Shown piece after piece: positions 14,803 through 32,236 of a stretch of DNA of 33,967 nt. A program made the translations under genes and the position numbers. The notes beneath the pieces are model-generated. The model had not been told where the DNA came from and did not search any database. It worked only from the letters and a program-made list of their open reading frames with translations. This DNA is from Halomonas salipaludis (lineage in GTDB: Bacteria > Pseudomonadota > Gammaproteobacteria > Pseudomonadales > Halomonadaceae), in NCBI RefSeq assembly GCF_002286975.1, contig NZ_NSKB01000017.1, forward strand, positions 1 to 33,967. Direction: 5' to 3'. Numbering within the stretch: the first letter of the stretch is position 1; every line of letters begins with the position of its first letter.

Positions 14803-15966
14803 TCACACCTCCACCCAGGTGCCTCCCGCCGCAGACGACGCCAGCGCCCGGGTGATGAATACCAGGCCATCGACCCCGTCGCTCACTCCCGGGGTGCCCT
14901 GGGCCAGCGGCGCGGGCTCGCGGCCCGCCTGGCGGGCACGGATCTGCTCGGCAAAGTCGCCATATAGCTGGGCGAAGGCTTCGAGATAGCCCTCCGGGTG
15001 CCCGGGGGGAATTCGCGCTGCCGCCAGCGCCGCCTCGCCCAGGCCCGGACCGTTGCGGGTGAGGATGCGCGGCGGCTCGCCCAGCGGTGAGTGGAGCAGC
15101 CGGTTGGGCTCCTCCTGATGCCACTCGAGGCCGCCACGGCTGCCGTAGACCCGCAGCTTGAGGCCGTTCTCGTTGCCCGGCACCACCTGGCTCGACCACA
15201 GCATGCCCCGCGCGCCGCCCTTGAAGCGCAGCATCATGTGCACGTTGTCATCCAGCGCGCGGCCCTCGACGAAGGTGTGCATGTCCGCCGCCAGCGACTC
15301 GAGCTCGAGACCGGTGACAAAGCGTGCCAGGTGATAAGCGTGGGTGCCGATATCGCCCAGGCAGCCGGCCGGGCCGCTGCGTTTGGGGTCGGTACGCCAC
15401 TCAGCCTGCTTGACGCCGCTCTCCTCGAGGCGCGTCGACAACCAGTCCTGGGGGTATTCGACCTGCACCACCCGCAGTTCGCCAAGCTCGCTGGCGGCGA
15501 CCATGTCGCGGGCCTGACGCACCAGCGAGTAGCCCGAGTAGTTGTGGGTCAGGCCGAAGAACAGCCCGCTGCGTTCGACCAGCGCGGCCAGCGCCTGGGC
15601 GTCCTCCAGGCTGGTGGTCATCGGCTTGTCGCAGATCACGTGGATGCCGGCCTCGAGGAAGGTCTTGGCCACGTCGAAGTGCAGATGGTTGGGCGTAACG
15701 ATGGCCACGACATCGATGCCATCCTCACGCTGGCTTTCGGCCTTGGCCATGGTGCGGTAGTCGGGGTAGGCACGCGCCTCGTTTACGTGCAGCTCGGCCG
15801 CCGCCGCACGGCTGCGCTCGGGGTCGGAGGCGAAGGCGCCGGCGACCAGCTCGTAGTGGTCGTCGAGCCTGGCGGCGATGCGATGCACGCCGCCGATGAA
15901 GGCGCCCTGGCCGCCACCGACCATGCCCAGGCGCAGCCGGCGGGGGGTATCCTGATGTTGGCTCAT
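14803..15966 (-). CDS. Gfo/Idh/MocA-family oxidoreductase
   Basis: A 387-residue cytoplasmic NAD(P)-dependent sugar oxidoreductase. The Rossmann motif [15 protein letters not shown] is at about 13-27, [11 protein letters not shown] and [10 protein letters not shown] (Asp in place of the usual Glu of the EKP motif) follow, and [13 protein letters not shown] holds the probable catalytic His. It is the last gene of the ribose-type ABC operon, 13 bases after the TIM-barrel isomerase gene, and is convergent with the ROK regulator. Members oxidise or reduce ring hydroxyls of sugars, inositols and 3-keto-glycosides. Pairing with a TIM-barrel isomerase is common in 3-keto-sugar and inositol pathways. 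Its substrate is unknown; a role reducing imported 3-keto-sugar is inferred from region C. Confidence 0.9.
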
Positions 15967-15979
15967 GTCGTCGTATCCT

Positions 15980-17035
15980 TCAGTCGAGGCCCAGCAGGCG
16001 GCGGTTGGTCGCCTCGTCGACGCCAGCGTCGGCGAAGTCGTCGAAGGCCCGCTCGGTCACCTGGATGATATGCTCGCGAATGAAGGCGGCCCCTTCGCGG
16101 GCACCGACCTCCGGGTGCTTGAGGCAGCACTCCCACTCCAGCACCGCCCAGCCGTGGTAGTCGTTGGCGGCCATCCACGAGAACATCGACTTGAAGTCGA
16201 CCTGGCCGTCGCCCAGCGAGCGGAAACGCCCGGCGCGTTCGGTCCACGACTGGTAGCCGGAGTAGACGCCCTGCTTGGGGCTGGGATTGAACTCGGCGTC
16301 CTTGACGTGAAACATCTGGATATGCTCGCGGTAGACGTCGAGGAAGCCCAGGTAGTCGAGCTGCTGCAGGATCAGGTGGCTGGGGTCGTAGAGGATGTGG
16401 CAGCGCGGATGGTGGCCGACCCGCTCGAGGAACATCTCGAAGGTGATGCCGTCGTGCAGGTCCTCGCCGGGGTGGATCTCGTAGCACAGGTTGACCCCGG
16501 CCTCGTCGAAGGCGTCGAGGATCGGCCGCCAGCGTTTGGCCAGCTCGTCGAAGGCGGCGTCGATCAGCCCCGCCGGGCGCTGCGGCCACGGATAGACATA
16601 GGGCCAGGCCAGCGCGCCGGAGAAGGTGCCGTGGTCGGTCAGGCCGAGGTTCTTCGAGGCCCTGGCGGCCAGCATCAGCTGCTCCACCGCCCACGCCTGG
16701 CGGGCCTTGGGGCTGCCTCTCACCTCGGCTACCGCGAAGCCATCGAAGACCTCGTCGTAGGCCGGGTGCACGGCCACCAGCTGGCCCTGCAGGTGGGTGG
16801 AAAGTTCGGTCAGTGTCAGGCCGTGCTCGGCCAGCGTGCCCTTGATCTCGTCGCAGTAGGTCTGGCTCTCGGCGGCGCGTTTCAGATCGATCAGGCGCGC
16901 ATCCCAACTGGGAATCTGCACGCCCTCGTAGCCTAACCCCGCCGCCCAGCGGGCGATGCTGTCGAGGCTGTTGAAGGGGGCGTCGTCACCGGCAAACTGA
17001 GCGAGAAAGATCGCCGGCCCTTTGATGGTTTGCAT
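15980..17035 (-). CDS. TIM-barrel sugar isomerase/epimerase (AP-endonuclease-2 fold)
   Basis: A 351-residue protein of the xylose-isomerase-like TIM-barrel family, without a signal peptide. Metal-site candidates occur in the usual order: Glu in NLCYEIHPGED, Asp and His in ILYDPSHL, His in MFHVKDAEF and Glu in WAVLEWECC. It lies between the ribose-type binding-protein gene and the Gfo/Idh gene. Related enzymes interconvert keto-sugars or cleave 3-keto-glycosides. No precise reaction can be assigned. The chain (351 residues) is longer than the usual 270-300 because of insertions around WPYVYPWPQRP and the C-terminal helices. Confidence 0.88.
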   Translation of the reverse strand: MQTIKGPAIFLAQFAGDDAPFNSLDSIARWAAGLGYEGVQIPSWDARLIDLKRAAESQTYCDEIKGTLAEHGLTLTELSTHLQGQLVAVHPAYDEVFDGFAVAEVRGSPKARQAWAVEQLMLAARASKNLGLTDHGTFSGALAWPYVYPWPQRPAGLIDAAFDELAKRWRPILDAFDEAGVNLCYEIHPGEDLHDGITFEMFLERVGHHPRCHILYDPSHLILQQLDYLGFLDVYREHIQMFHVKDAEFNPSPKQGVYSGYQSWTERAGRFRSLGDGQVDFKSMFSWMAANDYHGWAVLEWECCLKHPEVGAREGAAFIREHIIQVTERAFDDFADAGVDEATNRRLLGLD

Positions 17036-17085: not shown

Positions 17086-17092
17086 GGCTCGA

Positions 17093-18055
17093 TCAGAACG
17101 GTGAATCGGGGAAGTAGTACTGCTCGGCATTCTCCTGGGTGATCAGCGGCGAGCCGAGGATGTACTCGCCGACCACCGGGCCGTTGGAGACGAAGTGCTG
17201 CACGGTCAAATCCATGGCGGTAGCGATCATCGCCGGCGGATAGAGCACGTCCACCGGTATCAGTTCGTCACCCTCCATGACCCGCGCGATGATGTCCTTC
17301 ATGCCGGCGCCGCCGACGATGAACAGCTCGTCCTCGCGACCGGCCTGGCGCACCGCCTCGATCACGCCAAGGGCGATGTCGTCATCCTGGGCCCACACCG
17401 CGTCGATACGCTCGAAGCGTGCCAGGTAGTCCTGCATCACCTCGAAGCCGTCGTCGCGGTTCCAGTTGGCATGCTGCATGTCGAGGATATTGATCTCGGA
17501 GCCTTCGATGGCTTCCTGGAAGCCCTGCACGCGCTCCTCGTCGATCACCGTGGGGATCCCGCGCAGCACCACGATATCGCCCTCGCCGTCGAGCTGGTCG
17601 CGAATGTACTCGCCGGAGACGCGCCCCATCTCATGGTTGTTGCCGGCCACGTAGAGGTCTTCGATGCCCTCCTGCTCGAGGCCGCGGTCGACCACGGTGA
17701 CGAATACCCCGGACTCCTTGACGCGCCGCACCGGGTCGGTCAGCGGCCCCGACTCGAAGGGCAGCACGACCAGCGCATCGATGTTGCGCTGCGAGACCAG
17801 GTCCTCGAGGTCGTTGGCCTGGCCGCCCGGGTCGCTGGCGGTGGTGATGGTGATCGCTATCTCGGGATGCAGCGCCTCGAGCCGCTCCTTGGCCTGCTCG
17901 GCGTGGAAGTTGACCCCGCCAGTCCAGCCGTGGGTGGCGGCAGGAATCGACACGCCGATGGTGACCTCCTGGGCCATGGCGAGGCCGGGCAGCCCGATGG
18001 CCGCCGCCGCGGTCAGGGCCGCGACGTGCATCCTGGTATTCTTGGTGATGGGCAT
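17093..18055 (-). CDS. Ribose-type ABC transporter substrate-binding protein
   Basis: A 320-residue periplasmic binding protein of the RbsB/LacI-like fold. The signal peptide ends near AMA-QEV (about residue 28). VTIGVSIPAATHGWTGGVNFHAEQ, DLVSQRNIDALVVLPFES and WAQDDDIALGVIEAV are typical of the family. The ATG at 18055 has AGGAG 8 bases upstream; a longer open frame upstream reads through the permease gene out of frame and is rejected. The gene is bracketed by stem-loops at 18103-18118 and 17063-17085. Ligands of this family are monosaccharides and polyols. Confidence 0.94.
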   Translation of the reverse strand: MPITKNTRMHVAALTAAAAIGLPGLAMAQEVTIGVSIPAATHGWTGGVNFHAEQAKERLEALHPEIAITITTASDPGGQANDLEDLVSQRNIDALVVLPFESGPLTDPVRRVKESGVFVTVVDRGLEQEGIEDLYVAGNNHEMGRVSGEYIRDQLDGEGDIVVLRGIPTVIDEERVQGFQEAIEGSEINILDMQHANWNRDDGFEVMQDYLARFERIDAVWAQDDDIALGVIEAVRQAGREDELFIVGGAGMKDIIARVMEGDELIPVDVLYPPAMIATAMDLTVQHFVSNGPVVGEYILGSPLITQENAEQYYFPDSPF

Positions 18056-18102
18056 GATGATGCTCCTCTGCTGCTTGTGCTTGTTATGCTGCTGCCTTAT
18101 AG

Positions 18103-18118
18103 GGCGCCTCATGGCGCC
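18103..18118 (-). other. Short stem-loop enclosing the permease stop codon
   Basis: GGCGCC-ATGA-GGCGCC on the minus strand, with the permease TGA in the loop. It sits directly before the binding-protein gene, so that gene is flanked by hairpins on both sides. Confidence 0.5.
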
Positions 18119-19122
18119 GACTTCCTCCACGATGCGCGCTGCAGGTACACCGCGACGATGATGATGATCCCCTGCACCGTGCCGTTGAGATAGTTGGAGA
18201 TGGCATCGGTGAGGTTGAGGATGTTGCCGATCATGGTCAGCATGATCGCCCCCACCACCGTGCCCCAGATGCGCCCGTGGCCGCCCTTGAGCACGGTGCC
18301 GCCGATGATCACCGCGGCGATCGCCTCGAGCTCCCAGAGCACCCCGGTGGCCCCCGAGGCCGAGCCCAGCCGCGGCACGTAGATGATGGTCGCCAGCGCC
18401 ACGCACACGCCCTGCAGCATGTAGGTCATGGTCTTGATGCGATCGACGTGGATGGCGCTGTACTCGGCCACCTTCTCGTTGGAGCCGATGGCGAAGCAGT
18501 AGCGGCCGAAGCGGGTATGGTTGAGCAGGATGTAGCCAACCACCGCCACCAGCAGGAACACCAGCACCGGAATCGGAATCCCCATCAGGCTGCCGTAGTA
18601 GACCGGCCGATAGATGTCACGCACCCCCCAGTCCAGCGACAGGGTGCCGCCGTCGGCGAGGTAGGTGACCAGCGAGCGGTAGATGCCCATGGTGCCCAGG
18701 GTGACGATAAAGGCCTCGATCTTGCCCTTGGTGGTCACCATGCCGTTGATGAAGCCGGCACACAGCCCCAACAGCAGCGAGGCGCCAATACCCAGCAGGA
18801 TGGTGGTGAGGCCGGGGCCGAACTGCTCGACCAGGCTGTTCATGAAGATGATCATCACCCCGGCGATGAACGCCGCCATCGAGCCCACCGACAGGTCCAG
18901 CCCGCCGGCGGTGATCACGAAGGTGGCGCCGATGGCGATGATGCCGATGAAGGCGCTGCGGGTGAGCATGTTGGACAGGTTGTCCAGCCCCAGAAAGGCG
19001 GGGTTGATCAACACCCCCAGCAGCGCCAGGGCCAGCAGGGCAATGAAGGGTCCCCAGGTCTTGAGGTCGAAGGAGGCGCGGCTCCGGGCAATGGGTTTGT
19101 TGTCAGGCACGGCGCTGTTCAT
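18109..19122 (-). CDS. Ribose-type ABC transporter permease (RbsC-like)
   Basis: A 337-residue inner-membrane permease of the branched ribose/xylose/autoinducer-2 type. [16 protein letters not shown] is the family hallmark, with [10 protein letters not shown] and the late [15 protein letters not shown] segment. It overlaps the upstream ATPase gene by 20 bases, implying coupled translation, and is followed after 53 bases by the binding-protein gene. Confidence 0.95.
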
Positions 19123-20632
19123 CGACTCCTACCCCCTTGATACCGGATGCGTACTGCATGATTTCGTGTTCGTTGATCTGCTCACCCTCGAGCACGCCGG
19201 TCAGCACCCCGGCGCACATCACCGCCACCCGGTGCGAGAGGCCGATCAGCTCGGCCATCTCTGAGGAGATCAGGATGACCGAGCAGCCGGCGTCGGTGAG
19301 TTCGCGCACGAAGTGGTAGATCTGGTGTTTGGTGCCTACGTCGATGCCACGCGTCGGTTCGTTGATGATCACGATCTCGGGGTCGATGGACATGACCTTG
19401 GCCAGCAGCAGTTTCTGCTGATTGCCGCCGGAGAGTTCGGCGGCGGTAGCCGCCTGGGTGCGCAGGCGGATGTCGAAACGCTCGATGGCCTCCTGGAAGG
19501 CCTGCTCCTCGCGGCGCCGGTCGATCAGCGGCCGGCAGTAGGCGCGCAGATTGAGCAGCGTGAAGTTGGGACGCAGCCCCATGTTGAGCACCAGTCCCTT
19601 GCCCTTGCGGTCCTCGGTGAGGTAGGCAATGCGCTGGCGTGCTGCATCGCGCAGGTGGCGCAGCGCCACCGGCTGGCCATTGCGCAGCACCTGCCCCTGG
19701 CTGCGGGGGCGCAACCCCAGCAGCGCCTCGATCAGCGCCGTGCGACCGGCGCCGACCACCCCACCGAAGCCCAGTACCTCGCCGCGGCGCAGGCTGAAGC
19801 TCGCCCGCTTCACGGCGCCGGGCACCACCATGTCACGCGCCTCCAGTACCACTGGGGCGTCGCGGGCCAGTTCGGTGCGCTCGGGATACATGTCATTGAT
19901 CTCGCGCCCCACCATCAGCCGCGCCAGCTCCTCCTTGCTGCGTCCGGCCATGGGCCCGCTGTCGACCAACCGGCCGTCGCGCAGCACCGTGACCCGGTCG
20001 GCGATCCGCTCGATCTCGCGCAACTTGTGGGAGATGTACAGAATCGCCACGCCGCGCTGGCGCAACCGCCCTATCAGCGCGAACAGTACCTCGACTTCAT
20101 GCTCGGTGAGGGACGCGGTGGGCTCATCCATGATCAGCACGCGCACGTCGCGGGTGATCGCCTTGGCGATCTCGACCATCTGCTGGTCGGAGGTGCTGAG
20201 GTCCTTGACCCTGGCGCGCGGATCGACCCGGGTCTCGAGCTCGGCCAGCGCCGCGCGGCAGCGCTCGCGCATGGCGCGGCGGTCGAGGAAGGGGCCGCGG
20301 CGCAGCTCGCGGCCAAGGAAGATGTTCTCCTCCACGCTCAGCTGCTCGGCCAGGGCCAGTTCCTGGTGGATCATCACCACCCCGTCGGCCTCGGCGTCGC
20401 CGCTGCTGCGATAGTGACGCACCTCATCCGCCAGGCAGACGTCACCGTCGCTGGGGCTCAGATAGCCGGCGAGAATACGCACCAGCGTCGACTTGCCGGC
20501 GCCGTTCTCGCCCAATAGCGCGTGGACCTCACCGGGCTTGAGCGAGAGATCGATGTCGAACAGCACCTGGTTCTCGCCAAACCAGCGAGAAATGCGCCGC
20601 GCCGCCAGCAGCGGCTGATCCGGCATGCTCAT
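19103..20632 (-). CDS. Ribose-type ABC transporter ATPase (RbsA-like, two domains)
   Basis: A 509-residue protein with two tandem nucleotide-binding domains. The first has GENGAGKST at 41-49 and [15 protein letters not shown]. The second has the degenerate Walker [12 protein letters not shown], the signature LSGGNQQK and [14 protein letters not shown], as usual for this family. The ATG at 20632 shares its A with the TGA of the upstream dehydrogenase gene (TGATG), favouring this start over a GTG at 20641. Substrate is probably a monosaccharide; the binding protein decides which. Confidence 0.95.
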
Positions 20633-21402
20633 CAGCCCCACCCCGCGTCGACGCAGAATTCATGGCCGGTCAGCTGGGCGCTGTCGTCAGCGGCCAGGAA
20701 CAGCACCATCGGTGCCACATGCTCCGGGGCCAGGCGCACCTTGAGGCACTGGTGCTGCTGGATGCGCGTCTCGTCCTCGGGGCCGATCCACTTGTCGAGC
20801 TGACGCTCGGTCATGATGCAGCCCGGCACCACCGTGTTGACACGGATGCTCTGTTCGCCAAGATCGCGAGCCAGGCTGCGGGTCAAGCCGTGCACCGCGG
20901 CCTTGGCGGTGACATAGGTGGGTAGGTTGCCCAGCGCCAGGCGCACGCTGATCGAGCCGAAGTTGATGATCGAGCCACCGCCGGCCTGAGCCATGCGCTC
21001 GGCCACCGCCTGGCTCGAGAAGAACATCGGCCGCAGGTTGAGCGACATGCGTTCGTCCCAGTAGTCGACGCTGACCTCACGCCAGTCGTGGCGGTCGTCG
21101 TTGGCGGCATTGTTGATCAGGGTGCGGATCGGCCCCAGACGCTCGCTCACCTCGTCGATGACGGCCTGCAGGGCGCTGATATCGCGGATATCGCAGTGGT
21201 GATAGCAGGGTGCCCGGCCGGTCTTCGCCTCGAGGTTGCGGCACAGCACCTGGCTCGCTGCATCGTCGATATCGACGAAGGCGACACTCGCGCCCTGGTG
21301 GTGAAAGGCCTCGACCAGGGCCGCACCGATCCCGCCACCGCCTCCAGTGACGAAGACGACGCGCCCGGCAAGACTCGGGTAGCGGGCCATCGGCTCGCGC
21401 AT
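20632..21402 (-). CDS. SDR sugar dehydrogenase, second XylB-like paralogue
   Basis: A 256-residue short-chain dehydrogenase with TGGGGGIG at 19-26, Asp44, NNAAND at 97-102 and the catalytic set Ser150, Tyr163 and Lys167. It has the same length as the dehydrogenase at 12452-13222 and is about 70% identical by eye, with the same XylB-type motifs (NDDRHDW, YWDERM, NFGSIS, VDAGWG). It is the first gene of the ribose-type importer operon; the ATG at 21402 has GGGGAG 7 bases upstream. A sugar 1-dehydrogenase role is likely. Its importer and regulator differ from those of its paralogue, so its substrate may differ too. Confidence 0.85.
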   Translation of the reverse strand: MREPMARYPSLAGRVVFVTGGGGGIGAALVEAFHHQGASVAFVDIDDAASQVLCRNLEAKTGRAPCYHHCDIRDISALQAVIDEVSERLGPIRTLINNAANDDRHDWREVSVDYWDERMSLNLRPMFFSSQAVAERMAQAGGGSIINFGSISVRLALGNLPTYVTAKAAVHGLTRSLARDLGEQSIRVNTVVPGCIMTERQLDKWIGPEDETRIQQHQCLKVRLAPEHVAPMVLFLAADDSAQLTGHEFCVDAGWG

Positions 21403-21452
21403 GGCGATCTCCCCTGTTGTTATTGTCGGAAGCTGTGGAGCAGCTGGCGTGG

Positions 21453-21477: not shown

Positions 21478-21570
21478 ATTTACCTATGCAACTTAGGTCG
21501 CATCAGATGAGGGATATCGCCTCGTGCCAGCCATTGGCCATTGCCTGATTGCGTCTCTGGTAGACTGCCC

Positions 21571-21591
21571 ATGACCCACAGCAACGGCTAG
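21571..21591 (+). other. Six-codon open frame just before the second ROK gene
   Basis: ATG ACC CAC AGC AAC GGC TAG ends four bases before the ROK start codon. No clear ribosome site precedes it. It may be chance, or a short coupling leader for a gene whose own ribosome site is weak. Confidence 0.2.
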
Positions 21592-21595
21592 ATCC

Positions 21596-22804
21596 ATGGC
21601 CTCTCAGCCCCATGACAGCAGCCGCCACGACAACACCCTGGCGGTGATACGCACCCTGCGTGAGCAAGGCCCGGCGGCGCGCGTCGACCTGGGCATTCTC
21701 AACGGCATCAGCTCGGCCACCGTGACCTCGATCAGCGCCGAGTTGCTGCAGCAGGGGTTGATTGCCGAGCTGCCACCTGACACCCCCCGCCCCAGCGGAC
21801 GCGGACGCCCCAAGACGCTGATCCAGCTGGCCCCCGAGGCGGCCTGCGTGATCTGCGTCAAGCTGTCGATCAATGAGCTGCAGTTGGTGGTGGGCGACTA
21901 CAGCGGCCAGATGCAGCATAGCGAGCACCATAGCGTCGCCACCCTGGCCCTCACGCCAGCGGACCTGGTGGCGCTGCTCGAAGAGAAGATTGCCGAGGTG
22001 CGTAGCCTGGCGCTGGCCAGCCATCGCCGCCTGGTGGGTATCTGCCTGGCGGTACAGGGCGTGGTGGCGTCGCATAGCGGCACGCTGATCTGGTCGCCGG
22101 CGCTGAGCTTTCGCAACGCCGCGCTGGCGCCGCTCCTGACCGAGCGCTTCGGCTGCCCGGTGCTGCTCGAGAACGATGCCAACTGCATCGCCAGCGTACT
22201 GGCGACGCAGCCCGCCTATGCCGGCTACCCCAATCTGGCGGTGATCATGCTGGGCTATGGCATCGGCATGTCACTGCTGATCGACGGCGTGCCGTTTCTC
22301 GGCGCCAACGGCTCCGCAGCGGAGTTCGGCCACAGCAAATACCAGCCAGGGGGTGCCCAGTGCGCCTGCGGCAAGCGCGGCTGCGTCGAAGCCTATGCCG
22401 GCGACTACGCACTCTATCGCAAGGCCCGCGAGGTCCTCGAGCTGCCCGCTGGCGACAGCGCGCACCCGTCGGAGGCACAGATGCAGGCCCTGACGCAGTT
22501 GGCCATGCAGGGCAACCCCGACGCCCAGCGCATCTTCGCCGAGGCGGGGCGCGCGCTGGGCTACGGCATGGCCAATCTACTGGCGCTGTTCAACCCCGAC
22601 CTGGTGCTGGTGACCGGCTCCGGGGTACGCGGCTACGCGGCCATGCAGGAGGCCATGCAGGACGCCATCGACGAGGCGCTGGTCAGCGAGCTGATCGGCC
22701 CCACGCGTATCGTCAGCTGCCCCTGGGATCGCGACATGACCTGCCTCGGCGGCATCGCCATCACCCTCCAGGCGACCGATTCGCAACGCCTCACAGAGAG
22801 CTAG
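21596..22804 (+). CDS. ROK-family transcriptional regulator
   Basis: A 402-residue repressor-type ROK protein. The N-terminal helix-turn-helix spans about 12-60 (NTLAVIRTLREQGPAARVDL, then GISSATVTSISAELL). The ROK domain has LENDANCIA, GYGIGMSL and a zinc site of His246 with Cys256, Cys258 and Cys263 in CACGKRGC. It is divergent from the second XylB-like gene and probably controls that importer operon, and perhaps itself, through the palindrome at 21453-21477. The gene has only a weak ribosome site. Its effector sugar is unknown. Confidence 0.9.
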   Translation: MASQPHDSSRHDNTLAVIRTLREQGPAARVDLGILNGISSATVTSISAELLQQGLIAELPPDTPRPSGRGRPKTLIQLAPEAACVICVKLSINELQLVVGDYSGQMQHSEHHSVATLALTPADLVALLEEKIAEVRSLALASHRRLVGICLAVQGVVASHSGTLIWSPALSFRNAALAPLLTERFGCPVLLENDANCIASVLATQPAYAGYPNLAVIMLGYGIGMSLLIDGVPFLGANGSAAEFGHSKYQPGGAQCACGKRGCVEAYAGDYALYRKAREVLELPAGDSAHPSEAQMQALTQLAMQGNPDAQRIFAEAGRALGYGMANLLALFNPDLVLVTGSGVRGYAAMQEAMQDAIDEALVSELIGPTRIVSCPWDRDMTCLGGIAITLQATDSQRLTES

Positions 22805-23106
22805 TACGCCAAGCAAGCACCGCCCCACTTGCCAGTGCAGCAAAGTGCTCGCAGGGCTGAGGCTATATCCTGCTTATTTAGCCTGTTCGGGCCACGTCTT
22901 GGGGGTGCATATTCGGCATTCAATCGTATCGAAATGTTAGTAAGCATTCTTCATCATAAAGCCTGCAACTAAAGTATTACCTTCTATCCTGGCGGCACAA
23001 AAAGATATTCTAATCAACATCTTGCCGCATATTCTCTGTTCCATACCGACCCACGTCGTCACCTGTCGAGCTTATTCCCAAAGGCTAAACTTGCAGGGAA
23101 TGCCGA

Positions 23107-23112
23107 TATGAT
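23107..23112 (+). promoter_or_regulatory. Possible -10 box of the region C promoter
   Basis: TATGAT matches the sigma-70 -10 consensus at five of six bases. The matching -35 position (around GCTAAA) is poor, so activation or a weak promoter is possible. The predicted start point near 23119 falls inside the palindrome at 23118-23137. Confidence 0.4.
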
Positions 23113-23117
23113 CTAAA

Positions 23118-23137
23118 CAATGTAATGCATTACATTG
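23118..23137. promoter_or_regulatory. Perfect 20-bp palindrome, operator candidate
   Basis: CAATGTAATGCATTACATTG is its own reverse complement over all 20 bases. It lies just after the -10-like TATGAT, where a bound repressor would block transcription of region C. The TGTAA...TTACA form is typical of dimeric helix-turn-helix regulators such as LacI or GntR types. It resembles neither ROK palindrome in the window. Confidence 0.7.
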
Positions 23138-23155
23138 CATCGATCTTCTCGAGAT

Positions 23156-23196
23156 AAGGAGATCCCCATGGAAGATCTATGATGAAAAATAAGTAA
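23156..23196 (+). other. Ribosome site with tiny open frames in the leader
   Basis: AAGGAG at 23156-23161 is 6 bases before an ATG at 23168 that encodes only MEDL before TGA. That stop overlaps an ATGATG starting a second short frame (MMKNK, stop at 23194-23196). The strength of the ribosome site for so short a frame is odd; it may be a leader peptide or the remnant of a displaced gene start. Confidence 0.35.
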
Positions 23197-23270
23197 ATGA
23201 AGGAACACATAAGCTGCAAAAATTTCGCAGCATATGAATTTTCAACAAGGAAAAACAAACGGAGAATGGC

Positions 23271-24143
23271 ATGCCATCAAACATGGATAAATGGAAAAAA
23301 TACGCCGCAATTACAATAGGATGCAGTGCTTTCACTTCCATCGCCATACCTAGCCTTGCCCAGCAAGAATCGAGTGAACTTCCCATCGCCGTGCAGATGT
23401 ACACATTGCGTGATTTCGGTGACCTGGAAGAACAGATGGCCGCCGTTCAGCGCGCCGACGTAGGCGCCATCGAGACGGTAGGAGATCAGGGCGTTTCGTC
23501 AGATGAACTCAAGGCGCTGCTGGCGGAGTATGAGCTAGAGGTGATCTCGAGCCATATACCCCTGGAGGATCTCAGGCACCGTTTGGATGAAACCATAGCC
23601 TTCAATCGTGCCATCGGCAACGACACCCTAACACTACCTTATCTCGATGAGAGCGAGCGCCCCGAGAGTATTGATGAGTGGCAGTCACTAGGCCAAGAGT
23701 TGGGCGATATTGCTTCGCACTTGAACGATGAGGGTTTCCGTCTCGCCTACCACAACCATGAGTTCGAGATGGAGGTGTTAGAGGGCAAGACAGCATTGGA
23801 GCATATGTTCGACGCCGCTGGTCCCAAGCTCTTGGCGGAGCTGGATATCGCTTGGATCGCTCGTGGTGGATTGGACCCAGCAGAGTACGTGAATCGCTTT
23901 GAAGAGCGCCTATTCGCCGTGCACGCCAAAGACAATGCCCCAGAAGGTAGTGCCGAAGAGGAAGGCGGTTTCGCCACGCTTGGCATGGGCGTGCTGGATT
24001 GGGAAACGATTCTACCAGCCATCGAGTCGAGTGAGTCGGAGTGGTACATCATCGAGCACGACCACCCTATCGATGCTGAAGCCGTGATCACCGAAGGTAG
24101 TCGCTTCCTGCGTCAGGAACTCAGCAAACTTCGCATGAAATGA
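23271..24143 (+). CDS. Exported TIM-barrel isomerase-like protein (first of two)
   Basis: A 290-residue protein with a signal peptide ending near SLA-QQ (residue 30), so it should be periplasmic. The mature part is an AP-endonuclease-2/xylose-isomerase-like barrel. Metal-site candidates are Glu and His in LAYHNHEFE, Glu and Asp in LLAELDIAW, His in FAVHAKDN and Glu in YIIEHDHP. Start 23271 has GGAG 6 bases upstream. Relatives in 3-keto-glycoside clusters and in C-glycoside deglycosylation act on 3-keto-sugars by elimination or isomerisation, which suits the neighbouring GMC oxidase and DUF1080 genes. The exact reaction is not known. It is the first gene of region C and has lower GC than region B. 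Confidence 0.88.
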   Translation: MPSNMDKWKKYAAITIGCSAFTSIAIPSLAQQESSELPIAVQMYTLRDFGDLEEQMAAVQRADVGAIETVGDQGVSSDELKALLAEYELEVISSHIPLEDLRHRLDETIAFNRAIGNDTLTLPYLDESERPESIDEWQSLGQELGDIASHLNDEGFRLAYHNHEFEMEVLEGKTALEHMFDAAGPKLLAELDIAWIARGGLDPAEYVNRFEERLFAVHAKDNAPEGSAEEEGGFATLGMGVLDWETILPAIESSESEWYIIEHDHPIDAEAVITEGSRFLRQELSKLRMK

Positions 24144-24192
24144 CATAGCGTCGCCACCACTGACCCAAGACGACAATAATGAGGTTGGCATC

Positions 24193-25089
24193 ATGAGCAA
24201 CGCCATCGACAGACGACGCTTTCTGTGCCATAGCATCGCCGGCGCTGCAGGATTGACGGTATTGAGCACCGCCGGGACCAGCAGCTATGCCGATGATGAC
24301 GCTACGCCTTCGACACTCAAGGGAAATATCAATCACTCGGTGGCTCGCTGGACGTTCGACTTTCTCTCCCTCGAAGCGCTATGCCGACTGGCAGCGGGAC
24401 TCGGTATTTCGGCCATTGACTTGGTCGGGCCTAAAGAGTGGCCTGTACTTAAACGCTACAGTCTCGACTCCTCCATGTGCAATGGGGCCGAGTTGAGTCT
24501 CGAGGATGGCTGGGGAGACGCCCGCTTTCATTCGGAGTTGGTCGATCGCTACCTTGAGCATATCGACCTGGTGAGTGAGGCCGGCTACACCAATCTGATC
24601 TGTTTCAGCGGGAATGCTCGAGGCATGACGCCGGAGCAAGGGCTGGACAACGCCGAAAGAGGGTTGAAGAAGATTCTCTCCCACGCCGAGGAGAAGAGGG
24701 TCGTACTGCAGATGGAGTTGTTTAACAGCAAGATTGATCACCCGGATTATCTCTGTGATAACTCTGCCTGGGGTATCGAGCTGTGCCGACGTCTCGACTC
24801 CCCCAACTTCAAGCTTCTTTACGACATTTATCACATGCAAATAAGCGAAGGAGACATTATTAGAACCATTCGTGACCATCATGAGTACTTCGGTCACTAC
24901 CATACGGCTGGAGTTCCTGGAAGAAATGAGATCGACGATAGCCAGGAGTTGAACTACCCCGCCATATGTCGGGCAATTCGCGCCACCGGCTTCCAGGGGT
25001 ATATCGCCCAAGAGTTCCTCCCTGACAGGAGCGATAATCAAGAAAGAATCGCGTCGTTGCGCGAAGCGATTCATCTCTGCGACGTCTAA
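24193..25089 (+). CDS. Tat-exported hydroxypyruvate-isomerase-like TIM-barrel protein
   Basis: A 298-residue protein. The N-terminus DRRRFLC followed by a hydrophobic stretch and SSYA is a Tat signal (about residues 1-33). The mature barrel resembles hydroxypyruvate isomerases: Glu in LQMELFNSKID, Asp and His in LLYDIYHMQ, the diagnostic GHYHTAGVPGRNEID and Glu in AQEFLP. Tat export suggests it folds with its metal in the cytoplasm. It starts 49 bases after the first TIM-barrel gene with GAGG upstream. Periplasmic location rules out the classical glyoxylate role; action on a keto-sugar made by the GMC enzyme is inferred. Confidence 0.88.
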   Translation: MSNAIDRRRFLCHSIAGAAGLTVLSTAGTSSYADDDATPSTLKGNINHSVARWTFDFLSLEALCRLAAGLGISAIDLVGPKEWPVLKRYSLDSSMCNGAELSLEDGWGDARFHSELVDRYLEHIDLVSEAGYTNLICFSGNARGMTPEQGLDNAERGLKKILSHAEEKRVVLQMELFNSKIDHPDYLCDNSAWGIELCRRLDSPNFKLLYDIYHMQISEGDIIRTIRDHHEYFGHYHTAGVPGRNEIDDSQELNYPAICRAIRATGFQGYIAQEFLPDRSDNQERIASLREAIHLCDV

Positions 25090-25125
25090 GTCGCCACGCC
25101 ATACTCACAAGAAAGGTGTTTTTTC

Positions 25126-26811
25126 ATGGCCAACAATCACTATGATGCCATCGTGGTAGGCTCTGGCATAAGCGGCGGCTGGGCCGCAAAGGAGCTGACC
25201 GAAAAGGGCCTCAAGGTACTACTTCTTGAGCGAGGTCGTAATATCGAGCATGTAAAGGATTACACCAATGCATCCAAAGAAGTCTGGGACTATCCCCATC
25301 GTGATCAAGCCACTCAGGAGATGAAAGAGAAGTTCCCGGTATTGAGCCGCGACTATGCATTGAATGAATCGACCATGGGACTGTGGGCCGACGAGCAGGC
25401 CAACCCCTATGTCGAGGAGAAGCGCTTCGACTGGTTTCGCGGCTACCATGTGGGCGGGCGTTCCCTGATGTGGGGGCGCCAAAGCTACCGACTCAGTCCC
25501 ATGGACTTCGAGGCCAACCAGCGTGAGGGAATCGCCATCGATTGGCCGATTCGCTACGAGGACCTGGCTCCCTGGTATGACTATGTAGAACGTTTTGCGG
25601 GTATTGCCGGTACCCGTGAGGGCCTGGAGGTACTCCCCGATGGCGAGTTTCTTCCCCCAATCGAGCTCAACTGCGTGGAGAAGGACGTCGCCCAGCGTAT
25701 CGAGGCGGCCTTTGATGGGCAACGCCACTTGATTCATAGCCGAGTGGCCAATATCACTCAAGCCAAGCCGGAACAGAACCGGGTCGATTGCCAGTATAGG
25801 AACAAGTGCTGGCTGGGCTGCCCTTATGGCGCCTATTTCAGCACTCAATCGGCGACGCTACCGGCCGCCATGAATACCGGCAACCTAACGCTGAGGCCTT
25901 TTTCGATCGTCACCCAGGTGCTCTACGACAAGGATCGCAAACGGGCCCGCGGCGTTGAGGTCATCGATGCCGAGAATCACCAGACCTACGAGTACACCGC
26001 TGATCTCGTGTTCTTGAATGCCTCGACATTCAACTCGACCTGGATACTGATGAATTCCGCCACCGATATCTGGGAGGGCGGCCTGGGTAGCAGTAGCGGT
26101 GAGTTGGGCCACAACGTCATGGACCATCATTTCCGCTGCGGTGCCAGCGGTGACATCGAGGGCTATCTCGACAAGTACTATTTCGGACGACGCCCGGCCG
26201 GTTTCTATATCCCTCGCTTTCGTAACGTCGGCGACCAACGCCGGGACTATGCGCGGGGATTCGGTTACCAGGGAGCGGCGAGTCGCCAAGGCTGGGATCG
26301 AGAGATCGCCGAGCTCAATGTTGGCGCCGAATTAAAGCAGGCGCTCAGCCAGCCTGGCGGGTGGACCATTGGCATGACCGGCTTCGGCGAGATGTTGCCT
26401 TACCACGACAACCGCATCGCACTCGATCACAGCGTGCGTGACAAGTGGGGGCTGCCGGTATTGAGCGTCGATGTGGAGCTCAAGCAGAACGAGCGGGACA
26501 TGCGTAAGGACATGATCCAGGATGCCGTGGAGCTATTGGAAGCCGGCGGCGTGCAGAACGTCAAGGGCGAAGAAGGCGACTATGCGCCGGGCATGGGGAT
26601 TCACGAGATGGGCACGGCACGCATGGGACGCGATCCGCATACCTCGGTGCTCAATGCTTACAACCAGGTTTGGGATGCCCCCAACGTCTTCGTCACCGAC
26701 GGTGCTTGCATGACGTCGTCGTCCTGCGTCAATCCATCGCTGACCTACATGGCACTGACTGCCCGCGCGGTAGATCACGCAGTAGCAGAGCTCAAGCGGG
26801 GGAATCTGTGA
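25126..26811 (+). CDS. GMC-family FAD sugar dehydrogenase, large subunit (glucoside 3-dehydrogenase type)
   Basis: A 561-residue flavoprotein of the gluconate/fructose/glucoside-3-dehydrogenase group. VVGSGISGGWAA binds FAD, GYHVGGRSLMWGRQ is the second FAD motif, and His493 (HEMGTARMG) and Asn536 (SSCVNPS) are the catalytic pair. Cys222, Cys228 and Cys232 (C-X5-C-X3-C) match the place where relatives bind an iron-sulfur cluster. It has no signal peptide of its own; its TGA overlaps the ATG of the Tat-bearing small subunit, so it is probably carried out as a folded complex. It would oxidise a glycoside hydroxyl, most likely C3, passing electrons to the respiratory chain. Confidence 0.92.
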   Translation: MANNHYDAIVVGSGISGGWAAKELTEKGLKVLLLERGRNIEHVKDYTNASKEVWDYPHRDQATQEMKEKFPVLSRDYALNESTMGLWADEQANPYVEEKRFDWFRGYHVGGRSLMWGRQSYRLSPMDFEANQREGIAIDWPIRYEDLAPWYDYVERFAGIAGTREGLEVLPDGEFLPPIELNCVEKDVAQRIEAAFDGQRHLIHSRVANITQAKPEQNRVDCQYRNKCWLGCPYGAYFSTQSATLPAAMNTGNLTLRPFSIVTQVLYDKDRKRARGVEVIDAENHQTYEYTADLVFLNASTFNSTWILMNSATDIWEGGLGSSSGELGHNVMDHHFRCGASGDIEGYLDKYYFGRRPAGFYIPRFRNVGDQRRDYARGFGYQGAASRQGWDREIAELNVGAELKQALSQPGGWTIGMTGFGEMLPYHDNRIALDHSVRDKWGLPVLSVDVELKQNERDMRKDMIQDAVELLEAGGVQNVKGEEGDYAPGMGIHEMGTARMGRDPHTSVLNAYNQVWDAPNVFVTDGACMTSSSCVNPSLTYMALTARAVDHAVAELKRGNL

Positions 26812-27365
26812 TGAACCGTCGTGAACTACTCAAGATGATCAGCGTGGCGACTGGCACGGCATTGATCGGTGGCCACTCCTTGGTGGCGTTTAGTGCCCTC
26901 GACGAGAGCGAGCACGACTTCAGTGCCCAGGATATCCGGCGGCTGGATGAGTTGGCCGAGACGATCATCCCGCGCACCGATACCCCGGGTGCCAAGGATG
27001 CCGAGGTAGGCGCTTTCATGACGCAATTCGTCAGTGCCTGCTACAGCGCTCAGGAGCGCACCCTCTTCCAGCATGGCCTGGCACAGCTCGAGGCGCGCAG
27101 TCGCGCTGAATACGGGCAGGAGTTCCTGGCACTGGATGAGCCGCAACGACGTGCGCTAGTCGATGCGCTGGACCGGGAAGCCCGTCTCCAAATGGACAGT
27201 GCAAGCGACCCCCACTATTTCACCATGATGAAGCAGCTGACGCTGTTCGGTTTCTTCACCTCAGAGGTGGGTGCCACGCAAGTCCTGCGCTATGAAGCGG
27301 TGCCTGGTCGTTACGATGGCTGTGCACCCTACGAGGAGGGGGAGCCCGCTTGGGCGACCACCTGA
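26811..27365 (+). CDS. Gluconate 2-dehydrogenase subunit 3 family protein (Tat small subunit)
   Basis: A 184-residue small subunit that escorts the GMC dehydrogenase. The N-terminus NRRELLKM with a hydrophobic run (about 1-31) is a twin-arginine signal. The body has the family's ETIIPRTDTPGAKDAEVGAFM motif and the C-terminal LTLFGFFTSEVGATQVLRYE. The ATG shares its A with the stop of the large-subunit gene (TGATG). Upstream in-frame codons belong to the large-subunit gene in another frame and are not used. No cytochrome c subunit follows, unlike three-subunit relatives. Confidence 0.93.
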   Translation: MNRRELLKMISVATGTALIGGHSLVAFSALDESEHDFSAQDIRRLDELAETIIPRTDTPGAKDAEVGAFMTQFVSACYSAQERTLFQHGLAQLEARSRAEYGQEFLALDEPQRRALVDALDREARLQMDSASDPHYFTMMKQLTLFGFFTSEVGATQVLRYEAVPGRYDGCAPYEEGEPAWATT

Positions 27366-27454
27366 CTGGCGGCTGGGGCACTGCTCTCGAGGCCGTCGAG
27401 ACTCGTATCGCACCCCGCTGAGCAGCCGCTCTCTCTCGATATGCCATGCATCTC

Positions 27455-27475
27455 TGGCGGGCCAAAGGCCCGTCA
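27455..27475 (+). other. Stem-loop between small subunit and porin genes
   Basis: TGGCGGGCC pairs with GGCCCGTCA (9 bp, one G-U) around AAA. No T-run follows. It sits in the 181-base gap before the porin and may set different message levels for the enzyme and porin parts. Confidence 0.55.
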
Positions 27476-27546
27476 GGAGGTGTCTTGCTGCCTGATCGCA
27501 GCGCCCCTTCGCACGCTTACCAATGACAACAATCGGAGCAATGGAC

Positions 27547-28707
27547 ATGTTTCACAATTTTCACCCTCGCCTCCTCCTGGTTGCCGGCTTGGCAACCATC
27601 GGCAGTTCCCCCAGCCTGGCGCAACTCGTCTACGAGGGGGAGTCGGGAGAGCTCACCTTCGGTGGCGATGTCGAGCTGGATATCAATGCCCAGAACACCC
27701 ACGCTGGCGAGGGGCCGATCTTTTTCGAAGACGATGTCGACCATGGCGATGAGTTCAATCAGACCGGACGCATCCTGCTCGATATCAGTGGCGAGCGCCG
27801 CAGTCCAGCCAACCACTATGCAGGCTTCAAGGTGCAGCCGCTGATTCAAACCGATGGCAACTTCGCCGTCGATGATGCCTGGCTAGCCATCGGCAATCGC
27901 CATGGTTTCGAGTTCAAGGTCGGCCGTTTCGAGGCATTCGACCTGTTCCCACTGGGGCAGGATGTCTTCGTTGGCTTCAGCGGTGACACGTCGGACGGCC
28001 TGTATCGCGACGGCCAGGGGTATATCTATCAAGCCAAGGAGGGCCGTGGCCGTGGCGGCGATTCCGGCCAGGTAATGGTCAGCCAGCGCAGCGGCAACCT
28101 TTATGGTGAAATTTCCACGCTATTCGGCGATCGCAGCGATCTCTTCGATTCCGATACCTACCACGGCTACCGGATCGATCCCCACCAGCGCAGCAAGGAC
28201 TCCTTTATCGTACGTCCCGCCATCGCCTGGGCACCTGGACCGTGGACGCTGGCAGCGGGACTCGAGACCAACCTAGTCGACGCTGCCATCGTCGATGAGC
28301 GCGGTGCCGACATCGGCGACCGTACCGGCTACGGGGTGCGGATCTCCTACGCAGCAGGCGACTGGCAGTGGAATGCCAATCTCGCCTACCTGGATGCCTT
28401 TGAGGAGACCAATCAGACACTCGGGGTAAATGCACTATGGCGTCAGTTTGGCGTGGGCTATATCCATGCCCGCAATGACATCGACGACGTCAATCCCGTG
28501 GAGGGTGACGACGTGGTGTTCAGTGTGCCGGGGCGCTACGACATCGACACGCTCTATACCTCCTACCAGTTCGCCGATGTGCTGAGCATCGACGATCTAC
28601 GTCTCTATCTAGGGGCTTACTACAGTCGTATCGACCACCAACAGATCGACAGCCTGGACGACGCCGACCGCTACGGCGCCCGGGTGCGTTTCAAGTACCT
28701 GTTCTAA
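27547..28707 (+). CDS. Outer-membrane carbohydrate porin
   Basis: A 386-residue beta-barrel protein. A signal peptide ends near SLAQ (about residue 26). The mature chain alternates short polar and aromatic strands (GELTFGGDVELDINAQN, GFEFKVGRFEAFDLFP, YGVRISYAAGDWQWNANLAY) and ends in FKYLF, the outer-membrane assembly signal. Asp and Glu are abundant. ATG 27547 is preferred because CGGAG lies 9 bases upstream; ATG codons at 27523 and 27541 are possible. The family resembles carbohydrate-selective porins rather than LamB. Lying between the dehydrogenase and DUF1080 genes, it probably admits the glycoside substrate to the periplasm. Confidence 0.85.
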   Translation: MFHNFHPRLLLVAGLATIGSSPSLAQLVYEGESGELTFGGDVELDINAQNTHAGEGPIFFEDDVDHGDEFNQTGRILLDISGERRSPANHYAGFKVQPLIQTDGNFAVDDAWLAIGNRHGFEFKVGRFEAFDLFPLGQDVFVGFSGDTSDGLYRDGQGYIYQAKEGRGRGGDSGQVMVSQRSGNLYGEISTLFGDRSDLFDSDTYHGYRIDPHQRSKDSFIVRPAIAWAPGPWTLAAGLETNLVDAAIVDERGADIGDRTGYGVRISYAAGDWQWNANLAYLDAFEETNQTLGVNALWRQFGVGYIHARNDIDDVNPVEGDDVVFSVPGRYDIDTLYTSYQFADVLSIDDLRLYLGAYYSRIDHQQIDSLDDADRYGARVRFKYLF

Positions 28708-28725
28708 ACCGCAAGGAGTCACAGC

Positions 28726-29496
28726 ATGAATATCCCCACGCGCATGATCTGGATGACCTGCAGCAGCCTGGTGGCGTTGTCCGCCGTGGCCGACGATACC
28801 ACGTCGACGGAGCAACGCGATGCTCGGCAGCAAGCCGCCGAAACGGAAGTCTGGGAGCCGGTTCCCCCCGTGGTGTCGGCCCCTGAGGGAAGTGCCCCGT
28901 CCGATGCCATCGTACTCTTCGATGGCAGTAGCCTGGAGGCCTGGGAGGCCGAAGAGGGTGGGCCGGCGAGGTGGCGCCTCGAGGGCGATGCCATGACGGT
29001 GGAGCGCGGTAGCGGCGGCATTCGCACACGCCAGGATTTCTGTGACGTGCAGCTCTACCTGGAGTGGCGTGCACCTGCCGAGATCGATGGCATGCAGGGC
29101 CAGGATCGCGGCAATAGCGGTGTCTTCCTGCAGGAGCGCTACGAGATTCAGGTACTCGACTCCTACGACAACGCGACCTACCCCAACGGCCAGGCCGCAT
29201 CGGTCTACAAGCAGCATATCCCACTGGTCAACGCGTCACGCCCACCGGGTGAGTGGCAGAGTTACGATATCCTCTACACGGCGCCACGCTTCGACGAGTC
29301 GGGCGAGCTGGCCTCTCCCGCCTATGTCACGGTACTGCACAACGGCGTGCTGGTTCAGCATCACGTCGAGATTCAGGGCACCACCGAGTGGATTGGCGAA
29401 CCCGATTACGACGAGGCGCATGGCTGTGCGCCGATCTATCTGCAGGACCACGACGCCGCGGTGAGTTTCCGCAATATCTGGGTCAGGGAGCTTTAA
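28726..29496 (+). CDS. Exported DUF1080 protein (3-keto-disaccharide hydrolase family)
   Basis: A 256-residue protein with a signal peptide ending near AVA-DD (residue 22), an acidic linker, and a DUF1080 lectin-like jelly roll from about residue 60. Hallmarks are VLFDGSSLEAWE, GQDRGNSGVFLQERYEIQVL and the ending IYLQDHDAAVSFRNIWVREL. Members of this family cleave 3-keto-disaccharides or 3-keto-glycosides after C3 oxidation. It follows the porin by 18 bases with AAGGAG before its ATG, and is convergent with the Gfo/Idh gene 16 bases away. With the GMC dehydrogenase it forms the core of a periplasmic oxidise-then-cleave route. Confidence 0.94.
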   Translation: MNIPTRMIWMTCSSLVALSAVADDTTSTEQRDARQQAAETEVWEPVPPVVSAPEGSAPSDAIVLFDGSSLEAWEAEEGGPARWRLEGDAMTVERGSGGIRTRQDFCDVQLYLEWRAPAEIDGMQGQDRGNSGVFLQERYEIQVLDSYDNATYPNGQAASVYKQHIPLVNASRPPGEWQSYDILYTAPRFDESGELASPAYVTVLHNGVLVQHHVEIQGTTEWIGEPDYDEAHGCAPIYLQDHDAAVSFRNIWVREL

Positions 29497-29512
29497 TCAT
29501 GACGGCGCTGCA

Positions 29513-30439
29513 TCACTCGATGAAGGCATCGGTGACATCACGCTGCCCATAGAGGAAGGCGTCAGCCACGTGGCGCAGCGGCGCCACGTCGACCTCGCGC
29601 CGGCCACTTGCGACCAGCTCGGCGAAGCGCGCATAGAGGCCGGCGTACTCGCGCTCCTCCGCCTCCAGCGAGAGCTGGCCGTCGAGGCTCAATCGGCAGC
29701 CGCCCTGGGTCAGGCTGAGGCGCCCGGCGTCGGTCTCGACATGGATATCCCAGGTCGGCGGACCGCTCTGGCGGAAGTCGAAGTCGGCCTCGATGGTGGC
29801 CCCGTCGGGGTCGGCGAAGCTGAGCTCGGCGGCAATCGGCGTCTGGCAGTTGCTCGGCACCAGCAGCCGTGCCTGACGCAGGAAGAACGCCTGGGGCAGG
29901 ATCGCGGTGGCGATCGACAGGGCATTGATGCCGGGGTCGAAGACGCCCATGCCGCCGGGCTGCCAAATCCACGCCTGGCCCGGATGCCAGACCCGCACAT
30001 CCTCCTTCCAGACGATCTCGACGCGCTCGATGCGCCGCTCGGCCAGCCACTCGCGGGCCCGGGCAACGCCGGGGGCGAAGCGTGAGTGCCAGGCGGCGAA
30101 TAGTGTGACGCCCTGCTCGCTGGCGACGTCGATCAGGTCTTCGACCTCGCTGAGGGTGGCGCCGGGCGGCTTCTCGAGCAGCACTTGCTTGCCGCGCTGC
30201 AGCGCCAGGCGTGCCTGGGCGTGGCGCAGGTGGGTCGGGGTACAGATCGCCACAGCGTCGAGCTCGGGGTGGGCATCGAGCATCGACGCCATATCGGCGT
30301 AGGCCGGCACCTCGGGCAGGCTGGCATGAGGATCGGCGCTGGCCAGCAGCCGGTAACCGGGGGTCGCCGCCAGGGCCGGCAGGTGCTGATCGCGGACGAT
30401 CTTGCCGACGCCGACCAGGCCGAGGGAAACATCAGACAT
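29513..30439 (-). CDS. L-arabinose/D-galactose 1-dehydrogenase (Gfo/Idh family)
   Basis: A 308-residue enzyme close to Azospirillum L-arabinose 1-dehydrogenase (309 residues), which makes the aldonolactone from L-arabinose or D-galactose. Shared landmarks are SLGLVGVGKIVRDQHLPA, LLEKPPGATLSEVE (EKP motif), AAWHSRFAP, WKEDVRVWHPGQ-WIWQPGG, GVFDPGINALSI and the ending VADAFLYGQR. ATG 30439 is chosen over 30469 because it matches the homologue's start and has AAGG upstream. It lies 46 bases after the GntR gene. Its aldonate product could be used by the xylD-like dehydratase, if that enzyme accepts it. Confidence 0.92.
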   Translation of the reverse strand: MSDVSLGLVGVGKIVRDQHLPALAATPGYRLLASADPHASLPEVPAYADMASMLDAHPELDAVAICTPTHLRHAQARLALQRGKQVLLEKPPGATLSEVEDLIDVASEQGVTLFAAWHSRFAPGVARAREWLAERRIERVEIVWKEDVRVWHPGQAWIWQPGGMGVFDPGINALSIATAILPQAFFLRQARLLVPSNCQTPIAAELSFADPDGATIEADFDFRQSGPPTWDIHVETDAGRLSLTQGGCRLSLDGQLSLEAEEREYAGLYARFAELVASGRREVDVAPLRHVADAFLYGQRDVTDAFIE

Positions 30440-30485
30440 GGAGGACCTTTTCACGATAGACAACAACAAGGGAAATCACAGGTAT

Positions 30486-31259: not shown

Positions 31260-31290
31260 AGCAGTGAGATCCTATTGCAGTTCCTCGATA

Positions 31291-32235: not shown

Positions 32236-32236
32236 G

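Follow-up and report, generated by a model that had tools for sequence, protein, structure and literature searches.

What do six genes for putative sugar-processing enzymes do in Halomonas salipaludis, and which proteins complete the pathway that they begin? The genes lie on the + strand of a 33,967-nucleotide stretch of contig NZ_NSKB01000017.1 (hereafter the window, whose coordinates we use), at 23271-29496, and they encode two PF01261 TIM barrels, a GMC protein, a Gluconate_2-dh3 protein, a RafY-like porin, and a DUF1080 protein. An original prediction described them as a self-contained periplasmic pathway that oxidizes glycosides and then cleaves them. Coordinates and Pfam matches bear out the six same-strand genes. 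Two features were overlooked: the opposite strand carries an operon for a hydratase, a Gfo reductase, and an ABC transporter (14803-21402), and a block that is either present or absent (22783-29514) corresponds to the six genes. We propose, at a probability of roughly 70%, that the six genes form the exported arm of a 3-keto-glycoside pathway that spans two compartments, that they were acquired as a block, and that their partner is an operon on another contig (C2) that shares their operator. The features of the block are:

23271..24143, + strand: TIM barrel 1, putative exported relative of O-glycoside beta-eliminase (OGE); PF01261; PDB 8bvk (AtOGE), E = 6e-91; Sec-type leader
24193..25089, + strand: TIM barrel 2, hydroxypyruvate-isomerase/ketose-epimerase-like; PF01261; twin-arginine (Tat) leader; invariant residues and fold matches are given below
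25126..26811, + strand: GMC FAD subunit, relative of glucoside 3-dehydrogenase, without a leader; PF00732/PF05199
26811..27365, + strand: small subunit, Gluconate_2-dh3; PF13618 (6e-38); Tat leader
27523..28707, + strand: outer-membrane porin, RafY-like; PF16966 (Porin_8/RafY, 1e-87)
28726..29496, + strand: putative exported DUF1080 protein of the 3-keto-disaccharide hydrolase family (3keto-disac_hyd); PF06439 (6e-40); PDB 4qhz, E = 2e-73
23121..23134, no strand: palindrome TGTAATGCATTACA, proposed LacI-type operator, ending 137 bp 5' of the start of the first gene (OGE)
22783..29514, no strand: acquired block, absent from the same-genus genome G001 and low in GC

Agrobacterium tumefaciens has a four-enzyme non-hydrolytic glucoside pathway, described in PMC10628242, that consists of GlycDH, AtOGE, AtHYD, and Gfo; after the OGE step, the hydratase AtHYD and then the Gfo reductase act. 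Among solved structures, the best match of barrel 1 is 8bvk, the structure of AtOGE. The eight AtOGE residues that are named as metal ligands or catalytic in the account in PMC10628242 (E39, H66, H132, H134, E161, D163, H189, and E233) all have counterparts in barrel 1 (E68, H95, H161, H163, E190, D192, H218, and E262), and each is kept in 61 or 62 of the 62 aligned rows, the window included. The Agrobacterium loci that we compared encode proteins that are near-identical to AtOGE (at best 250 of 253 residues). We predict that barrel 1, as an OGE relative, catalyzes the Mn-dependent beta-elimination of 3-keto-O-glucosides.

The GMC protein is 77% identical over 561 amino acids to A. tumefaciens genes from loci L051 and L043 (which are not PMC10628242's own GlycDH sequence), and the small subunit is 53% identical to its L051 counterpart. 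As in a GlycDH with a Tat small subunit, the GMC gene adjoins one for a Gluconate_2-dh3 protein with a Tat leader, so we predict that the pair oxidizes glycosides at C3. The DUF1080 protein scores 137.8 bits against PF06439 (the curated cut-off is 26.8), and hydrolysis of 3-keto-glycosides is predicted from its family. In barrel 2, E175, D211, H237, and E274 are invariant, and we take them to be the metal site of the epimerase family. A structural model of barrel 2 (pLDDT 83.5) is closest to the hydroxypyruvate isomerase-like 3ngf, to ketose 3-epimerases, to YcjR (6wn6; a 3-keto-glucoside 4-epimerase), and to C-glycoside deglycosidases. Because these four classes of fold match about equally well, we assign no role to barrel 2.

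The later enzymes of the pathway also have relatives in this genome. A putative 2-hydroxy-3-keto-glucal hydratase (HYD) is encoded in the neighboring operon of the window and matches the solved AtHYD (8ro4) over its full length, with a fold match at 66% identity. A second copy, on contig C2, is also a full-length match to AtHYD (E = 7e-171). Both copies have a Gfo gene beside them. By homology, relatives of all four Agrobacterium pathway enzymes are present in H. salipaludis.

To see how widely the six genes occur together, we scanned a collection of genomes and kept the best 80 loci of a larger number; presence required 40-70% identity, depending on the gene (30% for Gfo), along with 40% coverage. 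GMC and its small subunit are present, and adjacent, in all 80 of these best loci; HYD is found in 68, Gfo in 67, DUF1080 in 66, barrel 2 in 65, and OGE in 64. All three of OGE, barrel 2, and DUF1080 are present in 50 of the 80. The loci are from Halomonadaceae, xanthomonads, Alteromonadales, Cellvibrio, Rhodobacterales, and Rhizobiales. Given this conservation of the GMC pair, DUF1080, barrel 2, and OGE, the grouping is more than chance. The porin was found in just 3 of the 80 loci at 50% identity or above. We ruled the porin out as a core component; the "dedicated porin" of the original prediction is a local addition. In all nine Agrobacterium or Rhizobium loci, DUF1080 and barrel 2 are absent near GMC, and the genome with locus L051 has two weak matches to DUF1080 away from GMC.

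Some of these loci vary in other ways. In Alteromonadales or Rheinheimera (L088, L092-L095, and L097-L102), GMC is accompanied by DUF1080 and, except in L088, by barrel 2. In these loci we found no OGE at 45% identity or above, and the nearby barrels, where there are any, are 25-31% identical; because of this lack, another cleaving enzyme may replace OGE there. Three Luteimonas loci (L048, L068, and L074) have a second, divergent pair of GMC (32-33%) and DUF1080 (28-30%) in the same cluster, on the other strand. In Halomonas socia (L023), a 418-residue open reading frame that looks transposase-like by eye (8670-9926, - strand) lies between barrel 2 and GMC, and the match to GMC begins at residue 3.

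The compartments of the two arms can be predicted from how the proteins begin. Judging the starts of the six proteins by eye, we found Sec-type leaders on barrel 1, the porin, and DUF1080, Tat leaders on barrel 2 (DRRRFL) and the small subunit (NRRELL), and none on GMC. A pair of arginines lies within the first 40 residues in all 65 rows of barrel 2 and in all 80 rows of the small subunit, and leaders stand at the start of the OGE, barrel 2, and DUF1080 rows (among the rows listed); the start calls of L096, L059, and L067, and for HYD also of L069, are doubtful. Agrobacterium OGE rows start with a Sec-type leader as well, so we dropped the idea that an exported OGE is a novelty. The main text of PMC10628242 has no match for periplasm, signal peptide, cytoplasm, or export.

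In HYD, on the other hand, the alignment to the solved AtHYD starts at residue 1 and the first barrel strand spans residues 5-10, so that a leader would not fit; of residues 6-14, seven are invariant (25 rows). Gfo begins, by eye, with its nucleotide-binding strand. Both proteins look leaderless and are probably cytoplasmic. All 68 of the loci with HYD encode a sugar carrier within 6 kb of it (52 MFS and 16 ABC, where one of the 16, in L023, is the resident xylose-type ABC transporter), and in two loci of the MFS type (L027 and L063), Pfam scans identified a nucleoside/sugar symporter adjoining HYD. In the other 12 of the 80 loci, there is no HYD in the DNA examined. Because HYD and Gfo look leaderless and inner-membrane carriers are encoded nearby, we infer that the cleavage products are imported and then finished in the cytoplasm. 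The original prediction holds for exported oxidation and cleavage, which homology supports well, but, for the same reason, probably not for self-containment or for having all steps in the periplasm.

The block itself looks acquired. The same-genus genome G001 aligns to 14800-22782 and to 29515-33967 with 41 bp between the two, where the window holds 6.7 kb; G002 is likewise without the block, and without the neighboring GfoB gene as well. The genes of the cassette have a GC content of 54-63%, and the flanking genes 67-69%. A clean empty site together with low GC suggests acquisition, with a ROK regulator on one side of the insertion and an arabinose-type gene on the other. At the borders of the block we found no direct repeat longer than 7 bp and no sign of a transposon. 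Another genome of the genus, G003, retains the GMC-to-DUF1080 half of the block (L136, on its contig C17).

A palindrome links the block to an inner arm. We spotted TGTAATGCATTACA by eye 5' of OGE, saw related sites in L024 and L027, and afterwards scanned for the pattern TGTAA-N4-TTACA. There are 45 sites in 2.07 Mb, where about 2 are expected with uniform bases. Of these, 41 are at most 500 bp upstream of a gene for OGE, barrel 2, GMC, Gfo, HYD, or LacI; the other four are the window's own site before OGE, two sites within GMC genes, and one without such a gene nearby. The 5.5-Mb genome of H. salipaludis has just four sites (and none for the reversed pattern): one before OGE, one in the GMC gene, and two at the LacI and HYD genes of contig C2. 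That contig carries, at locus L133, an operon for LacI, HYD, Gfo, and a ribose-type ABC transporter. The palindrome is a candidate LacI-type operator that the LacI protein may bind and that would link the block to the C2 operon.

Among 121 family genomes (we assumed that the searches for GMC, HYD, and Gfo used the same draw of 121), GMC is found in 10. HYD is found in all 10 of these carriers and in 33 of the 111 others, counting HYD relatives of any type (Fisher 1.5e-5), and Gfo in all 10 and in 39 of the 111 (Fisher 6e-5); shared ancestry weakens these P values, and relatedness inflates all of our counts, which counts against our proposal. A site lies before the exported arm in nine carriers, before the HYD/Gfo arm in nine, and before both in eight. 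In G108 and G098, whose arms are unlinked, there are exactly two sites, one per arm. Within the genus, a C2-type HYD (71-72% identity) accompanies GMC in G000, G003, and G004; G001 and G002 have neither. The most likely partner of the block is the unlinked C2 operon of LacI, HYD, Gfo, and ABC transporter, and not the xylose-type operon beside it.

We also examined genomes with HYD and without GMC. Ten non-carriers that were picked because their HYD is of the xylose type hold 8 sites, of which not one is at HYD; the reversed pattern yields a comparable background. The 17 HYD-bearing non-carriers (of 33) without a xylose-type HYD have 22 sites. Fifteen of these, spread over 13 genomes, are at most 500 bp upstream of HYD or Gfo. 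In two non-carriers (G017 and G135), a 72-73% identical HYD on the contig numbered C2 in each has a pair of palindromes 5' of it, like the C2 operon of H. salipaludis. The operator thus belongs to the LacI-type inner arm, which does not need the block beside it, and is apparently borrowed by the block. A third HYD/Gfo pair in H. salipaludis, on contig C7 (L134), is accompanied by a further SDR and by a second barrel that is weakly HYD-like; this set is possibly a cytoplasmic variant of the pathway.

A competitor for the role of partner is the operon next to the block:

14803..15966, - strand: Gfo/Idh/MocA oxidoreductase, 58% identical to the Agrobacterium pathway gene (L051)
15980..17035, - strand: HYD relative of the resident "xylose" operon; PDB 8ro4 (AtHYD), E = 1e-174
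17093..20641, - strand: ribose/xylose-type ABC transporter (binding protein, permease, and ATPase)
20632..21402, - strand: SDR, D-xylose 1-dehydrogenase-like (NF053674, 343 bits, below the cut-off of 400)
21596..22804, + strand: ROK-family regulator (PF00480) that borders the block on the left; G001 and G002 have it but lack the block

If this operon were the real partner, then the whole locus would be a pathway for xylosides or arabinoxylan fragments: a 3-keto-xyloside would be cleaved outside, with hydration, reduction, and xylose oxidation inside. The operon is adjacent and complete, it is flanked by GH43, GH3, and XylD-like genes, and its HYD is 71% identical to the Agrobacterium gene (L051). 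In Paracoccus, genes for a related ABC transporter (53-63%), HYD, and Gfo lie on the same strand directly 5' of the GMC cluster. Yet the operon has no operator site 5' of it and is present without the block in five genomes (G001, G002, G005, G139, and G143). Trees also separate the two arms, in tests whose groups were named after the identity tables had been seen. The neighboring HYD falls in a clade with other xylose-operon copies (support 100/99), and grouping the neighboring HYD and Gfo with Halomonadaceae inner arms was rejected (approximately unbiased [AU] test, 3e-4; 2e-42 for a quick tree in which long branches were flagged). In contrast, GMC and OGE of the window group with Halomonadaceae (support 94/97 and 91, not starred), and placing them with alphaproteobacteria was rejected (AU 6e-4; 1e-7, quick tree). 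The DUF1080 tree is undecided (AU 0.46 with Halomonadaceae and 0.051 with alphaproteobacteria). We think it unlikely that the neighboring operon is the partner. The Halomonad-like GMC and OGE beside a non-Halomonad HYD and Gfo had at first suggested a module swap, with the inner arm replaced in place. We dropped this idea because the neighboring HYD and Gfo belong to a resident xylose-type operon, beside which the outer arm arrived.

The locus might instead be a lactose system. In Caulobacter, lacABC, whose products are three components, and a DUF1080 gene have fitness data, and Price 2022 gives Halomonas titanicae BH1 as one of three lactose-using genomes in which LacA is near DUF1080 (both as reported in PMC9007349). 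The H. titanicae locus (L027) is orthologous to the block (GMC 88% and DUF1080 77% identical) and holds the only DUF1080 gene of that genome. DUF1080 would then be the main hydrolase, acting on 3'-ketolactose, and OGE and barrel 2 would process the 3-keto-monosaccharide. As in these systems, a putatively exported GMC is encoded near DUF1080 in H. salipaludis, but its block has a porin and stands apart from the LacI-linked arm, and the third LacABC component was not seen in the window. That component is a cytochrome. We found no match to a cytochrome c family in the 28 open reading frames of the window that were scanned, and the rest of the genome was not searched for such a partner. Substrate preference is unreadable from sequence. 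We regard a LacABC-like role as rather doubtful, while giving it some weight. A GMC that acts on free ketoses or polyols beside unrelated neighbors seems to us highly improbable. Its small subunit belongs to a family that is named after gluconate 2-dehydrogenase, and the closest solved structures of GMC are fructose dehydrogenases; but those score about 125 bits against 77% identity to the Agrobacterium gene, and its linkage with OGE and DUF1080 is conserved across the 80 loci.

Several other observations weigh against the C2 operon as partner of an exported arm. One carrier, G067, has no HYD other than the xylose type and no inner-arm operator site, and in another, G003, no OGE was found in the whole assembly. 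Of the four sites in H. salipaludis, the one at 25251-25264 is within the coding sequence of GMC, and a copy of it is present in H. socia (L023, 10120). The exported-arm sites were placed via OGE in six carriers and via the distance from GMC in three (G074, G108, and G112). The xanthomonad and the Agrobacterium or Rhizobium loci lack the operator, and only two of the eight Rhodobacterales loci have one. Also, some genomes that lack the block have operator-bearing inner arms, which makes the site a mark of the inner arm and not of the pair. As for the enzymes, the hydratase activity of AtHYD is termed preliminary in PMC10628242, and the affinity of GMC to fructose dehydrogenases has just been mentioned. 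As for export, a hydropathy score of 1.3 or above is reached by 63 of 64 OGE, 63 of 65 barrel 2, and 63 of 65 DUF1080 rows, but also by 46 of 68 HYD and 38 of 59 Gfo rows, so the score cannot separate leaders. We discarded it as a test of export; the placement of HYD and Gfo in the cytoplasm rests on alignment and fold.

Combining these results, we propose that glycosides would cross the outer membrane, here probably through the RafY-like porin. GMC, exported by its Tat small subunit, would oxidize C3 in the periplasm, and OGE would split the resulting 3-keto-beta-glycosides by elimination. DUF1080 probably cuts 3-keto-glycosides that OGE handles poorly, such as those with alpha linkages or other sugars. 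The 2-hydroxy-3-keto-glycal or 3-keto-sugar that is released would cross the inner membrane, and in the cytoplasm HYD would hydrate and Gfo would reduce the imported product. The block appears to be switched on together with the C2 inner operon.

The chemistry of this pathway is already known, and the H. salipaludis locus adds another member. Although the original prediction took the arrangement to be undescribed, the grouping is neither unique nor unreported: the loci are spread over many taxa, and the four-enzyme pathway of PMC10628242 and the LacA beside DUF1080 in H. titanicae (Price 2022, PMC9007349) had been reported. H. salipaludis shares with the Agrobacterium pathway relatives of all four enzymes, the active-site residues of OGE, and the Sec-type leader on OGE; it differs in the addition of DUF1080 and barrel 2 and in that its exported and cytoplasmic arms are unlinked. 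BT2157 is a DUF1080 protein that hydrolyzes 3-ketotrehalose, according to PMC9007349.

A Bacteroides pathway, BT2156-BT2159, reportedly oxidizes, eliminates, hydrates, and reduces (Nature, 2024). It would use the same chemistry as the pathway proposed here, with a Gfo-type glycoside 3-dehydrogenase (NCBIfam BT_2158_fam) instead of GMC. A glucose 3-dehydrogenase from Halomonas alpha-15 has reportedly been studied as well.

The neighboring operon of SDR, ABC, HYD, and Gfo genes has a counterpart in the literature too. In its content (COG1082, COG0673, and XylD), it matches the Halomonas "xylose utilization operon" of PMC5507952 (2017), whose account left the COG1082 and COG0673 proteins without a function; the COG1082 protein here matches the solved hydratase AtHYD. 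Four points seem new to us: the split between compartments (an earlier description of which is possible), the acquisition of the outer arm, its connection through an operator to an inner arm that is not linked to it, and the identification of a hydratase in the "xylose operon."

The flanks, at 323-13222 and 29513-33907, resemble a xylan or arabinoxylan island, with genes for GH3, GH43, LamB, a MalK-type ABC transporter, and an aldose epimerase. Downstream of the block are genes for an arabinose-dehydrogenase-like Gfo protein, GntR, EamA, and IlvD/EDD.

More tentatively, and at somewhat less than even odds, bacteria may trade a mobile outer half of this pathway that is useful only in cells that hold or gain the inner half (carrier, hydratase, and reductase), which often occurs by itself under a LacI-type operator of its own. 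Because the block has this operator too, the resident regulator would control it even at an unlinked site. If so, the 2-hydroxy-3-keto-glycal or 3-keto-sugar would be the molecule that is handed across the inner membrane, and OGE, DUF1080, and barrel 2 together would enable a single block to cleave both anomers as well as several sugars. Our analysis suggests a site for each step of a recently recognized non-hydrolytic sugar pathway, along with the compound that is likely to be transported, and it offers a candidate regulator and operator for direct testing. A function can also be suggested for two enzymes that were left unexplained in the 2017 reconstruction of Halomonas sugar pathways, as given in PMC5507952. 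Finally, genomic adjacency can mislead: a copy of the inner enzymes is encoded beside the block, but it is probably not the block's partner.

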